Origin: Bacteroidota bacterium
Lineage (GTDB): Bacteria; Bacteroidota; Bacteroidia; SXHM01
Direction: 5' to 3'
Assembly (NCBI GenBank): GCA_947479755.1
Contig: CANKAM010000025.1
Coordinates: forward strand, 1 to 52,441
DNA: 52,441 nt
The notes under the pieces are model-generated. The model did not search any database. It was not told the origin of the DNA and saw only the letters and a program-made list of their open reading frames with translations. Shown here one piece after another: positions 27,108 to 51,263 of this stretch. Within the stretch, counting starts at the first letter, position 1; each line of letters opens with the position of its first letter. The position numbers and the translations under genes were made by a program.

Positions 27108-27274
27108 CACTGGTTACAAACTGATCAACTTAAATCACTTAACCCTCCGGCATAGCGCAACACCTTTACTCTGTAAATCTTTAAACCGGTTTCTGTTAGT
27201 ATAAAGCTTACGTTTTAGTTGTTAGCTTTTGTTGTTCATCAAAAGCAGCTTGCTATCAGTTTGCAGATAAATGG

Positions 27275-27564
27275 GAATATCCTGAAGGAAATTAGGAATT
27301 TCTTTCAGGAAAATTGGAAAGTCCTGAAGGAAAAGAAGAATATCCTATAGGTAAGGAAGAAATTCTCATGGGAAAAGCGGAAAATCCCACAGGAAATTCA
27401 AAAAAAACCGAGGGGAAGGGAGAAAAACCCACAGGAAATTCGGAATTTCCCATGGGAAAAGACGAATGTCTCACGGGAAAAGCGGAATAACCTGAGGGTT
27501 TGTATAACAAACCCTCAGGAAAAGAAGAAAAGACAGGAAGAAATGGACAAAAGACAGGAAGAAA
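27275..27564. repeat. 21 bp degenerate tandem array of FN3 locus 1
   Basis: Eleven consecutive 21 bp units run from 27275 to 27505. Most follow GAA-(3)-TCC-(3-4)-GGAAA. The core of most units is a small dyad: TCCTGAAGGA, TTCCCATGGGAA, AACCTGAGGGTT. The central 4 bases vary. Two further copies of AAAAGACAGGAAGAAA, also 21 bp apart (27528 and 27549), keep the phase to 27564, 27 bp before the gene. 21 bp is two helical turns and also seven codons. Stops in the first and eleventh units argue against translation on the plus strand. Confidence 0.9.
27491..27519 (+). promoter_or_regulatory. Strong stem-loop closing array 1
   Basis: CCTGAGGGTTTGT and ACAAACCCTCAGG form a perfect 13 bp stem with an ATA loop. 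The left arm overlaps the last regular unit. It lies 72 bp before the FN3 gene start, inside the expected leader RNA, and lacks a U-tract. Confidence 0.85.
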
Positions 27565-27591: not shown

Positions 27592-28227
27592 ATGAAAAAG
27601 AAATGGGTAGTAACACAGAAATTAAAGACAAAAACACCAATTGCTTTAAAAGAATACAGTAGTCAGGTATTGTCAATGCTGGCTGCCAGCATTTATTTTA
27701 ATCCTCCTAACCCTGTTCCTTTTGCTCCTTCGCTGGCAACGGCAATATCCAATAATGATGCGCTGCATGATGCGCTTTCGTCAGTTAATGGCGGCATTAT
27801 TAAAACTGATGCCGTGCGCCTGGCAAAAGAAACCGTTGAAAACGACCTTGACCTCTTAGGCATGTTTGTACAGATCATCGCTAACCAGCCTGCCAATAAA
27901 ACAATTGGTGATGTTATTATCCATGATGCAGGTATGGATTTCAAAAAAACAGTGCAGACAAAGCCGCGCGTGTTTTCAGTGGTCAATAACCCTGTGCAGC
28001 AAAACAGTGTTATTGCCCGCGCGGAAAATGCAGGTAAGCGCAGCGCGTATGAATGGCATTATAAGAAAGCAAACGAGTCTGCCTATACCATTGCGCAGAT
28101 AACAATTCAGGCTTCTTTCACTTTCCGTAAATTGGTTAGCGGAACACGCTATCATTTTCGTGTAAAAACCATTACCTCGCAGGGAACTGTTAATATAAGC
28201 AATGAGTTAGAGCTGGTGGTGCTGTAA
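27592..28227 (+). CDS. Array-associated protein with helical N-domain and FN3-like C-domain (copy 1)
   Basis: The 211-residue product has no signal peptide or membrane segment. Residues ~20-115 are helical, with 'FNPPNPVPFAPSLATAI', 'KTDAVRLAKETVENDLDLLG' and 'MFVQIIANQP'. Residues ~120-211 look like one fibronectin type III domain ('AYEWHYKK', 'FTFRKLVSGTRYHFRVKTIT', 'VNISNELELVVL'). The same order is found in the 49774-50487 product ('FNNNPPFIAPTT', 'EVDEARDLLMAELDTLREYV', 'VANG', 'FSNLQVGVTYYVYF', 'GVSPLSNAV'). Both genes lie directly after a tandem array. The function is unknown. It starts at ATG after an A-rich leader and stands alone. Confidence 0.8.
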   Translation: MKKKWVVTQKLKTKTPIALKEYSSQVLSMLAASIYFNPPNPVPFAPSLATAISNNDALHDALSSVNGGIIKTDAVRLAKETVENDLDLLGMFVQIIANQPANKTIGDVIIHDAGMDFKKTVQTKPRVFSVVNNPVQQNSVIARAENAGKRSAYEWHYKKANESAYTIAQITIQASFTFRKLVSGTRYHFRVKTITSQGTVNISNELELVVL

Positions 28228-28309: not shown

Positions 28310-28897
28310 ATGAACAAAACCCGCCTCGAGGCTTTCAGCGATGGAGTAATATCCATTATTATTACCATCATGGTATTGGAAATAAAAATACCACATGAGG
28401 CAACTATGCAAGCCTTGCTTGCGCGTACTCCCGTTTTCATCAGCTATGTGCTGAGCTTTCTGATGGTAGCTATTTACTGGGGTAATCATCATCATCTGTT
28501 GCATACGGTGCGTCATGTTACCCCAAAAATTATCTGGGCCAATATGGGCTTGCTGTTCTCCCTTTCGCTGGTTCCCTTCACTACCGGCTGGATGGGCGAA
28601 AACCATTTTGCCGAACTTACCGTTGCCCTCTATGCCGTCAACCATTTGTTCTGCGGCTTTATGGCTTTTCTTCTGCAAAATGCCATTCTCGACCACCTAA
28701 CCGAAAAAAACAAATTGATGGAAGCAATTCTCAAAACCAAAAAGAAATCAATGATAACAGTGGCGTTCTATTTAGTTGCCATTCCTGTTGCATTTTATTA
28801 TCCCATTGTATCAGTTGCGCTAATTGGTGTCTCTGCTGTTATGTGGGCTATCCCCGATAAAGATGTGGAGCGTGCATTGATGGAAGCGGAAGAGTAA
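28310..28897 (+). CDS. TMEM175-family potassium channel
   Basis: The 195-residue, six-helix membrane protein starts 'RLEAFSDGVISIIITIMVLE', the hallmark of DUF1211/TMEM175: the FSD motif in helix 1 lines the pore of this non-canonical K+ channel. Further helices follow ('FISYVLSFLMVAIYWGNHHH', 'LVPFTTGWMGENH'). Bacterial members work as tetramers. Length fits. It stands between FN3 gene 1 and an M20 peptidase without clear functional link. Confidence 0.93.
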   Translation: MNKTRLEAFSDGVISIIITIMVLEIKIPHEATMQALLARTPVFISYVLSFLMVAIYWGNHHHLLHTVRHVTPKIIWANMGLLFSLSLVPFTTGWMGENHFAELTVALYAVNHLFCGFMAFLLQNAILDHLTEKNKLMEAILKTKKKSMITVAFYLVAIPVAFYYPIVSVALIGVSAVMWAIPDKDVERALMEAEE

Positions 28898-48583: not shown

Positions 48584-48657
48584 GGGGGATTAGCTCAGCT
48601 GGCTAGAGCGTTTGCATGGCATGCAAGAGGTCATCGGTTCGACTCCGATATTCTCCA
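48584..48657 (+). tRNA. tRNA-Ala (anticodon GGC)
   Basis: The full cloverleaf folds: acceptor GGGGGAT/ATTCTCC, D-arm GCTC-AGCTGGCTA-GAGC, anticodon stem TTTGC/GCAAG with loop ATGGCAT (anticodon GGC), T-arm ATCGG-TTCGACT-CCGAT. The G3-U70 pair, the alanine identity element, is present. CCA is not encoded. Confidence 0.97.
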
Positions 48658-48730: not shown

Positions 48731-49522
48731 TTAATACTTGTCTTCCACTCCTGCCTTTAGCGCCCAGGGAAGCATTAACAAAAAAGGAACCGCGTTTTCA
48801 TAATCAAGTTCATTGTAATTTTTGCCTACTATTAAAAGGTTATCATAATACTTTTGCAAACGAAACTTGTAATATTTTTCGGAACGTATAAACCACGCCT
48901 TAGCTCCCAAATGTTGTGCAAGAAACCATTTTTCCAAAAGACGTGCAGTGCGACCATTACCATCAACAAAGGGATGAATTTTTACATATGCTAAATGCAA
49001 TAATGAAGCATAGTAAAATGTTTCATTAATTGTCAATTCCTTTTTAGCAAGCTCTTCCGCTTCCTTCATTAATACTTCAAATTCATCTTTTACAACTTCA
49101 GGAGCAGGACAAAAATAAACGGTGCGATGCAGACTCCCCACACGAACATTCTGGGTTCGCAACTTTCCCCTTTCATCAGGATTGTTTTTTAAAATAGTAG
49201 CAGAAGAAATTTTGTGGACTTTAAGCAAATTTTTTTTTGTAAGATTATTTTGCTTTGCAAACTTGTAAGCATTCTCCAAATCCTGCACCTCATTTATTCT
49301 ATCTGTCCCTTTCCCAACTCCATGTTCTTTATATCGTATATAATCAGTTTCGGTAACAGTGCTGCCTTCAATCTGTGAACTGTAAACAGATGATTCACCC
49401 GAAAATAATTCAAACGATTGATGAGCATATTTCAACTTGTCAAGCTTGTTCAAGTACTTGATAAGTGTGAATTTTTGTTTCCGCTTATAGTCATCTAACG
49501 CTATTGGAGTGAGTAATTTCAT
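48731..49522 (-). CDS. Fic family protein, probable AMPylase
   Basis: The 263-residue protein has the complete Fic motif HPFVDGNGR (183-191), so it should transfer AMP or another phosphoryl group to a target. It carries its own inhibitory helix motif SSQIEG (48-53, S-x-x-x-E-G), placing it among self-inhibited class II Fic proteins. 'VGSLHRTVYFCPAPEVV' is the flap region. Target unknown. It lies next to a tRNA gene and a short tRNA 3' end duplicate (49677-49687), which hints at insertion. Confidence 0.93.
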   Translation of the reverse strand: MKLLTPIALDDYKRKQKFTLIKYLNKLDKLKYAHQSFELFSGESSVYSSQIEGSTVTETDYIRYKEHGVGKGTDRINEVQDLENAYKFAKQNNLTKKNLLKVHKISSATILKNNPDERGKLRTQNVRVGSLHRTVYFCPAPEVVKDEFEVLMKEAEELAKKELTINETFYYASLLHLAYVKIHPFVDGNGRTARLLEKWFLAQHLGAKAWFIRSEKYYKFRLQKYYDNLLIVGKNYNELDYENAVPFLLMLPWALKAGVEDKY

Positions 49523-49708: not shown

Positions 49709-49737
49709 AACGAGCCCCGCCATTGGCGGGGCTCGTT
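49709..49737 (-). terminator. Terminator of FN3 gene 2
   Basis: AACGAGCCCCGCC and GGCGGGGCTCGTT form a perfect 13 bp stem with an ATT loop, 36 bp beyond the FN3 gene stop. Upstream of it (49738-49769) lies a 'ATGGACTATCAACTATGG' word repeat. Confidence 0.85.
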
Positions 49738-49773
49738 ACTATGGACTATCAACTATGGTCTATGGCCTTTCCC

Positions 49774-50487
49774 CTACAACTCAATCACCTTCTTACTCAC
49801 CGCATTACTTAGCGGACTTACCCCGGCTGCATTCATGGCCCAGAAATAAACGTAGTAAGTAACACCTACCTGCAGGTTGCTGAATTTCTTTTTGCGGCCT
49901 TTGGTAAGGTCAAGTATTCCGCCAATGCTGCCGGGTGATGGTGCTGCCGGAGGTATAGGACCCGGAGTAGCACCCTGTTCTATAACAACCTGTCCAAATC
50001 CATCAATAACAAACCATACCGGTAGCGGCTCGCTGGTTAATACTGCCCCGTAGCTGTCGGCATCTGTTATGGCTGCACACTCTGCTACCAACTCACCCTG
50101 AATACCGCGCACAAGAGTAATGCCTGAAGGCTGCACCGGTGCTACTACACTGCTCGTGCTGCCTTTGGTAGGCACAAAACCACCAAGTGCTATAGTAGTT
50201 GCATTACCATTAGCCACTGTATCAACATATTCTCTTAACGTATCAAGCTCTGCCATCAGCAAATCACGTGCTTCATCCACTTCTGATTGTGAGGCCGTGT
50301 GTAGTTTAAAAGCATCGTATTTGCCCGAATATGCATCTATCAGCAATTGCAAGGCAGCAAGTGTTGTAGTTGGAGCTATAAAGGGCGGGTTGTTATTAAA
50401 AACACCATCGCGCACACCAACTGCAAAAACTTTTATTGGGTTGGTTCTTAAACTGTGATAACTTAATTTACATCTTATTTTTACCAT
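49774..50487 (-). CDS. Array-associated protein with helical N-domain and FN3-like C-domain (copy 2)
   Basis: The 237-residue product lacks a signal peptide. Residues ~15-115 have 'FNNNPPFIAPTTTLAALQLL', 'EVDEARDLLMAELDTLREYV' and 'ATTIALGGFVPTKG'. Residues ~118-237 are beta-rich and end like an FN3 domain ('FSNLQVGVTYYVYFWAMNAA', 'GVSPLSNAVSKKVIEL'), with a proline-rich linker ('GATPGPIPPAAPSPGS'). It matches the order of the 27592-28227 product but with low identity, so the two are diverged family members, not a recent duplicate. Array 2 and two hairpins lie just upstream. Confidence 0.8.
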   Translation of the reverse strand: MVKIRCKLSYHSLRTNPIKVFAVGVRDGVFNNNPPFIAPTTTLAALQLLIDAYSGKYDAFKLHTASQSEVDEARDLLMAELDTLREYVDTVANGNATTIALGGFVPTKGSTSSVVAPVQPSGITLVRGIQGELVAECAAITDADSYGAVLTSEPLPVWFVIDGFGQVVIEQGATPGPIPPAAPSPGSIGGILDLTKGRKKKFSNLQVGVTYYVYFWAMNAAGVSPLSNAVSKKVIEL

Positions 50488-50531
50488 TTTGTTTTTTTGA
50501 TTTAGTTAGTTGTTTTTAATTGTATCAAAGA

Positions 50532-50573
50532 GAGCGCTTCGCTCAGTTGTTTTTAAAGGCGAAAAATTTCGCC
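50532..50573 (-). promoter_or_regulatory. Two leader stem-loops before FN3 gene 2
   Basis: GAGCG-CTT-CGCTC (50532-50544) and GGCGAAA-AA-TTTCGCC (50558-50573) are perfect short stems between array 2 and the start codon, 45-86 bp upstream of the ATG, followed by an A-rich stretch. Their placement matches the single 13 bp stem of locus 1. Confidence 0.7.
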
Positions 50574-50639
50574 CGGGTTTATTATTAATTAATTAGTTGT
50601 TGAATAAATTCTTTGTTCGGCTTGGTTTTGTCACCGGTT

Positions 50640-51115
50640 GATTAATAGTTAGTCTGCATTTGATTAATAGTTGCTAACGCTTAACTCATAGTTGTCCGCC
50701 ATTTGATTAATAGTTGGTCAGCATTTGGTTAATAACTGCTAGCACGTAATCAATAGTTGGTCAGCATTTGATTAATAACTGCTAACACTTAACTCATAGT
50801 TACCCACCATTTGATTAATAGTTGGTGAGCATTCGGTTAATAACTGCTAACACTTAACTAATAATTGGTCAGCATTTGATTAAATGCTCTCAACGCTTAA
50901 CTCATAGTTGTCCGCCATTTGATTAATAGTTGGTCAGCATTTGGTTAATAACTGCTAACACGTAATCAATAGTTGGTCAGCATTTGATTAATAACTGCTA
51001 ACACTTAACTCATAGTTACCCACCATTAGATTAATAGTTAATCAGCATTCGGTTAATAGCTGTCAACACTTAATCAATAGCCGGTCAGCTATTGATTAAT
51101 AAGGCTGAACAATTA
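50640..51115. repeat. ~21.6 bp degenerate tandem array of FN3 locus 2
   Basis: Twenty-two units (14 of 22 bp, 8 of 21 bp) run without gaps. Unit types alternate, for example 'GATTAATAGTTGGTCAGCAT', 'GGTTAATAACTGCTAACAC' and 'ACTCATAGTTGTCCGCC'. Short dyads recur (AACTCATAGTT, GTTAATAAC). A 216 bp block of ten units is repeated once in tandem (compare 50679 with 50895). The array is noncoding in all frames. The flanks 50574-50639 and 51116-51263 hold no gene that I can see. Confidence 0.92.
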
Positions 51116-51263
51116 ACCGAAATGCACTTTTCATTGATTGCTTTTTGTTTCTGATATGTCAAAGAACGTTTGCCTGTGGGCTTGTCATTAAAACGACACA
51201 AATGTGTGGCAATAAAATAAGTACAAGGGTTCCTGAAACTCATTCAAGGCTCCTCAACAGACA

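Follow-up and report, generated by a model that had tools for sequence, protein, structure and literature searches.

A 21-bp tandem array paired with an FN3-family gene: an apparently undescribed two-part genetic element of at least four bacterial phyla

The locus considered here raises the question of whether a short tandem array and a small gene can belong together. It lies in a stretch of 52,441 nucleotides (hereafter, the window, meaning this whole stretch at its full length) from a Bacteroidota bacterium of the class Bacteroidia (GenBank assembly GCA_947479755.1, contig CANKAM010000025.1), in which an array of short repeats precedes a gene for an FN3-containing protein not once but at two unlinked positions. 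The first-pass annotation considered chance unlikely for two such loci in 52 kb and suggested a protein family that travels with, or maintains, its own fast-changing repeat array. We asked whether the pairing holds beyond the window and, if so, in which form the repeats might act. The features of the two loci are as follows.

49709..49737, minus strand: inverted repeat with a GCCCCGCCANTGGCGGGGC core, 3' of the locus 2 gene
49774..50487, minus strand: FN3-family gene of locus 2 (237 aa; three-helix N-terminal domain and C-terminal FN3 domain; family homology by profile)
50532..50544, minus strand: leader stem GAGCGAAGCGCTC, then TCTTT
50558..50573, minus strand: leader stem GGCGAAATTTTTCGCC (a related one occurs in L043, but not across the family)
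50626..51116, minus strand: tandem array of locus 2 (about 22.8 units of 21.55 bp; higher-order periods 43/65/108/216)
51155..51167, minus strand: boxA-like motif GTTCTTTGACATA, containing one of six exact genome copies of GYTCTTTGACATA and matching the 16S rRNA leaders of relatives
51199..51206, minus strand: possible -7 promoter element CACATTTG (5/6 to TAnnTTTG, with comparable sites at other loci; weak, and not significantly better than in shuffled sequence)
27263..27496, plus strand: array 1 (locus 1), 21-bp units with TCCTGAAGGA-type dyads
27592..28227, plus strand: locus 1 gene (211 aa; same family as the locus 2 gene)

At locus 2, the 22 units of 21–22 bp (mean 21.6) originally counted agree with the fitted period of 21.55 bp, which gives the unit number listed above; TRF placed the array at 50638–51117, with nested periods of 22/43/65/108/216 and scores up to 758. 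This period is atypical, most family loci having one of 21.0 bp. The initially proposed extent was 49709–51115, but the feature runs further, to the boxA-like motif and the promoter-like site at about 51199–51206. The order array, stems, leader, gene and terminator stands for locus 2, where stems, gene and inverted repeat are all present, but the stems are not general to the family: among the leaders read, they were found in window locus 2, L043 and L045, and most leaders are devoid of them. The inverted repeat likely marks the end of the locus 2 transcript. Its hairpin core recurs close to other family loci, at L044:8683-8701, L052:5288-5306 and L054:8463-8481, and perhaps represents a terminator-like repeat spread through the genus. 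A tRNA gene (48584–48657) and a Fic/DOC-family gene (48731–49522) follow immediately downstream of locus 2.

The proteins of the two loci yield no BLASTP alignment (E = 0.14). By profile, via intermediate members, they nevertheless align over their full length (A4 versus A2, E = 1.2e-17; A4 versus A1, E = 1.5e-16; both at ~99% probability), which bears out the view of the locus 2 gene as a diverged relative of the locus 1 gene. The unit sequences of the two arrays are, as first noted, unrelated. The site of locus 1 is directly before a TMEM175 channel gene (window 28310–28897), where a sister species (L056, G004:C51) has a different family member with an unrelated array.

The pairing proved to be general. 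In the window genome, the locus 2 gene has about 10 relatives and the locus 1 gene has one further relative, and nearly every copy has an upstream array with a 21- or 42-bp period, each built from a different unit; at one copy the periodicity is apparent by autocorrelation only, and a broken family gene (L009/L010) still has its array. Where the upstream sequence sufficed for the test, 74/79 family genes were preceded by a 21-type lag at ≥46% self-match, versus 0/195 other genes of the same stretches at the same threshold. Family members generally have arrays, and chance is excluded. The association was replicated on independently chosen loci, about 38 of the 79 having been picked by protein profile alone, mostly from other genera and families. 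The array lies upstream of the gene in 69 of the 72 testable loci and downstream in two, in the same orientation as the single small gene; typically, it comprises 9–25 units (median 15) and ends ~94 bp before the gene. No recurrent partner gene was found near family loci beyond secreted surface proteins common in Bacteroidia. The locus is thus a stand-alone two-part element, consisting of a 21-bp tandem array and an FN3-family gene directly downstream of it in fixed orientation.

The two parts can also occur separately. In a third locus set, arrays were present at 13 of 20 loci, and four of the seven array-less loci (L205-L208, G189) fall, with L118, in one divergent subfamily, to which L081/L082 (G023) probably belong as well. 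This subfamily, with an N-terminus of MHCT or similar, indicates that the protein can exist without an array, and provides a natural contrast for what the array adds. Conversely, an orphan array in the window genome (L204:5568-6010; G000:C13:54569-54984) is 67% identical to array 2, shares its 43-bp period and its 5' junction TGCATTTCGGTTAA, and is followed by no family gene; hence, the gene can be lost and the array kept. At L080 (G058:C29), a CRISPR-like array (repeat AAGTATTTCAAAGATCGCTTATCAATCAAACCACAAC, 66-bp period) extends from ~1200 to 440 bp upstream of the family gene, directly upstream of its 21-bp array.

Outside Bacteroidota, a scan of named genomes uncovered members in Schlesneria (Planctomycetes), a Pyrinomonadaceae bacterium (Acidobacteriota), and Pedosphaera and Chthoniobacter (Verrucomicrobiota), all with upstream 21-bp arrays. 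The occurrence is patchy: 47/295 genomes of the window genome's own class, 5/241 genomes of the phylum of Pedosphaera and 2/199 genomes of the phylum of the Pyrinomonadaceae genome, the last count including one FN3-only match. A cultured organism, Limnovirga soli strain KCS-6, also has a member (L158). One genome of the Pedosphaera phylum carries at least 10 copies, of which several readable ones have 21- or 22-bp arrays and others have none. A viral origin of the protein was rejected, since searches yielded no relatives in viral contigs or, by tblastn, in phage records. In a weak test of virus targeting, three unit patterns had no exact match in viral contigs.

The C-terminal half of the family protein is FN3; the N-terminal ~105 residues produced no convincing match in Pfam, NCBIfam, PHROG or PADLOC. 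AlphaFold2 models of eight sequences predict a three-helix bundle N-terminal to FN3, with mean pLDDT values of 87.5 (Schlesneria member) and 69.5 (locus 2). In Foldseek searches with the predicted structures, the best hits matched FN3 only, and neither the family libraries nor Foldseek pointed to a recognised nucleic-acid-binding or toxin fold in the N-terminal domain. The protein has no signal-peptide-like N-terminus, a median pI of 8.6 and a charge of about +3 in its first 28 residues, and is probably cytoplasmic. The third-position bias of substitutions between orthologues shows the gene to be under purifying selection. Where the array differs, protein changes are concentrated in residues 1–50 in the L047 group but not in the trio formed by the window locus, L043 and L052.

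Several signals suggest that the arrays belong to transcripts. The sequence GYTCTTTGACATA occurs in six exact copies in the 3.9-Mb genome, all of which are just upstream of arrays of this family, and half of the own-genus loci (18/36) have a looser boxA-like motif. In relatives, this motif recurs in the 16S rRNA leaders, 100–170 bp before the gene, as AACGTTCTTTGAAAATATTGAAG within the genus (the 16S gene of the window genome is unassembled). There, it has the position and sequence of boxA, which is described as recruiting the Nus antitermination complex (PMC4807359); a boxA of CRISPR arrays, GTTCTTTAAAA, confers ~tenfold more transcription through a synthetic array (PMC7862264). We infer that the arrays are likely transcribed and protected from termination. 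The motif is missing from half of the own-genus loci and from nearly all loci of other genera, and boxA therefore cannot be the core of the system.

The best explanation, which we advance tentatively and rate at slightly less than an even chance, is a promoter–boxA–array–gene transcript whose repeats act with the encoded protein, by a logic resembling that of type III toxin-antitoxin systems or of another repeat-RNA/protein complex. Transcription would start upstream of the array and, in the window genome's own genus, the boxA site would recruit the Nus complex, allowing the polymerase to read through 200–500 nt of untranslated repeats into the gene. The protein, with a monomer or dimer on each unit, might then assemble along the repeat stretch of the transcript that encodes it, and the repeats, in turn, would hold or control the protein encoded after them. 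Under such an arrangement, the protein would constrain the length and dyad form of the unit and leave its sequence free, so that each locus would keep a private array. It is the location of the arrays 5' of the gene, together with boxA, that favours this RNA form.

The geometry of the units bears on the choice between RNA and DNA. Over 91 arrays, unit length is 20.99 ± 0.25 bp, with 88% of the arrays within 20.75–21.25 bp. Deviating lengths are common to related proteins with unrelated array sequences (22 bp in L137/L215/L216; 20–20.65 bp in L147/L222), and unit length tracks the protein subfamily (p = 0.0016, permutation), whereas unit sequence does not. This correspondence is the best hint in our comparisons of a coupling between protein and array. 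The units display dyad symmetry (mean z of 2.5 in each of two independent sets; 43/73 arrays at p < 0.05), which is restricted to Watson–Crick pairs, the sense strand not being enriched in G-U pairs (G-T observed/null 0.88). Array RNA folds better than unit-permuted controls, and the antisense RNA often folds better than the sense RNA, the antisense strand being compared with sense-strand permutations only. Accordingly, there is no RNA-specific signature, and sense-RNA hairpins were rejected, the folding not being strand-specific. Inside the units of the arrays of 67 loci, A/T content follows a 7-bp pattern, with peaks at 7 and 14, a trough at 9–12 and negative values at 10–11; a purine/pyrimidine alternation with the same 7 and 14 spacing is also present, a pattern that short complementary arms placed 7 bp apart might give.

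Because the mean unit, at 21.0 bp, spans two B-DNA turns, the data fit DNA binding as well. The arrays could constitute a DNA-level element, with helically phased dyad sites two turns apart being bound by a dimer of the FN3 protein or by a host factor, and the resulting nucleoprotein controlling the gene or acting like a partition or silencing site whose specificity co-diverges at each locus. It is the exactness of the period (20.99 bp, i.e. 2 × 10.5) and the strand-neutral, significant Watson–Crick dyads that favour the DNA form, and both the dependence of the period on the protein subfamily and the changes of array length by whole units (see below) speak for it as well. Yet the A/T autocorrelation, with its peaks near 7 and 14, excludes helical half-phasing at 10.5 bp within the unit, the arrays are strictly 5' of the gene, behind boxA and in an apparent transcribed leader, and the protein has no recognised DNA-binding fold. 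On balance, we regard this possibility as rather unlikely, albeit a serious one.

The mode of array change speaks to a further alternative. Arrays of close orthologues are 86–96% identical, have substitution rates close to neutral and, apart from one 1-bp gap, differ in length by exactly 42 or 63 bp. Substantial sharing of array 9-mers is confined to loci with at least 92% protein identity and is weak (0.11–0.12) in one group at 72%. Identity at 4-fold sites is 0.82 for a pair with a 90% identical array (L047/L053) versus 0.80 for a pair with no array similarity (L047/L070); such arrays are thus replaced in jumps, the flanking leader and boxA region remaining recognisable, and neutral drift as the source of the unrelated arrays was rejected for L047/L070 by the equal synonymous divergence. 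Consequently, the description of the array as fast-changing needs amending: complete replacement is possible, but close orthologues retain most of their array sequence, and both outcomes are seen at the same synonymous divergence. L047, L053, L057, L060, L067 and L070 have in common a conserved first unit, ATGATTACGTCTGCAGCAAAC or close variants, with the remaining array being of several unrelated kinds.

Near-neutral substitution, gains of whole units and the lack of array conservation between paralogues are what one would expect if the arrays were satellite-like by-products arising within a long 5' leader by slippage and unequal exchange, and tolerated or selected for length only, for example, as a translational spacer. 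Slippage, however, would not hold the period to 21 across four or more phyla, and it would explain neither the lack of arrays at all 195 neighbouring genes nor the recurrent dyads, making this scenario improbable. Least plausible, and rejected given the absent codon-position bias and the permutation test, is that the arrays encode heptad-repeat peptides (21 bp being seven codons) as the second protein of an operon: 42/73 arrays have one frame open over ≥90% of their length, and the six related loci of the L047 group begin the array with ATG and the conserved first unit and end it shortly before the gene, but orthologous arrays display none of the codon-position bias that is strong in the gene, stop counts are mid-rank among column-permuted arrays and show no consistent deficit relative to the antisense strand, every frame is interrupted by stops in several orthologue groups, and periods of 20, 21.55 and 22 bp break the frame.

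We return to the transcript-based reading, in which repeats and protein act together. More broadly, the chances appear evenly balanced that these loci represent a new class of two-part element, each member of which works with a private self-complementary 21-nt array of fixed repeat length and free sequence. If so, entire arrays could be rewritten, and cross-reaction among the many loci within a genome would be prevented. There is good support for a protein family travelling with a repeat array of its own, but not for its maintaining that array. What sets the element apart is a repeat that is locked in length yet independent of sequence and that goes with a single protein family across at least four phyla, often in several to many copies per genome, with a protein domain undescribed in Pfam and NCBIfam and a testable prediction on what reads the 21-bp ruler. 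Literature searches of open-licence PMC papers retrieved no published description of it. Other systems that pair a small protein with a repeat array, among them CRISPR and type III toxin-antitoxin, have mattered for both biology and technology.

Among known repeats, REP elements and their RAYT proteins offer a precedent for a protein family travelling with its own palindromic repeats, but protein family searches detected no Y1 transposase domain here, and the arrays are tandem and direct rather than dispersed hairpins. The BrickBuilt minisatellite MITE of Porphyromonas gingivalis, also from Bacteroidota, similarly consists of intergenic tandem units (23 nt) without spacers, is transcribed and is predicted to form long stem-loops; unlike the present arrays, it uses a single unit sequence at its 19 sites within one genome, is bounded by inverted repeats and has no companion gene (PMC4596501). 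Bacterial satellites are likewise tandem repeats of prokaryotes (PMC6749651), and a term search of the text of that survey turned up neither a 21-bp class nor Bacteroidetes. CRISPR loci with a boxA leader share the untranslated repeat array behind an rRNA-type boxA motif (PMC7862264), but the units described here measure 21 bp, are arranged head-to-tail without spacers and are private to each locus, with a protein gene directly downstream and no recurrent cas genes. The likeness to boxA-antiterminated RNA leaders, namely, a boxA-like motif common to rRNA leaders and placed upstream of the arrays, extends to the own genus only (6/6 exact sites, 18/36 loci).

The closest parallel in layout is with type III toxin-antitoxin systems (ToxIN, CptIN, TenpIN, AbiQ), which combine a promoter, a tandem array, sometimes a short hairpin and one small gene, and which are also stand-alone and patchily distributed, with broken copies. 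In these systems, ToxI-type repeats measure ~35 nt and number ~3–6, whereas the family loci have shorter, 21-nt units, 9–25 per array, and their unit contains no conserved pseudoknot or hairpin. A ToxI-type repeat has been described as a 25-nt core plus overhangs (PMC8860590). The short terminator hairpin between array and gene is absent from most family loci, and the family protein, a predicted three-helix bundle with FN3, does not have the endoribonuclease fold of ToxN, CptN and TenpN, nor any toxin match in Pfam, NCBIfam or PADLOC. The element thus has the layout of a type III toxin-antitoxin system, but its protein fold and unit size fall outside the definition of that type, and we therefore place the family beside these systems rather than among them.
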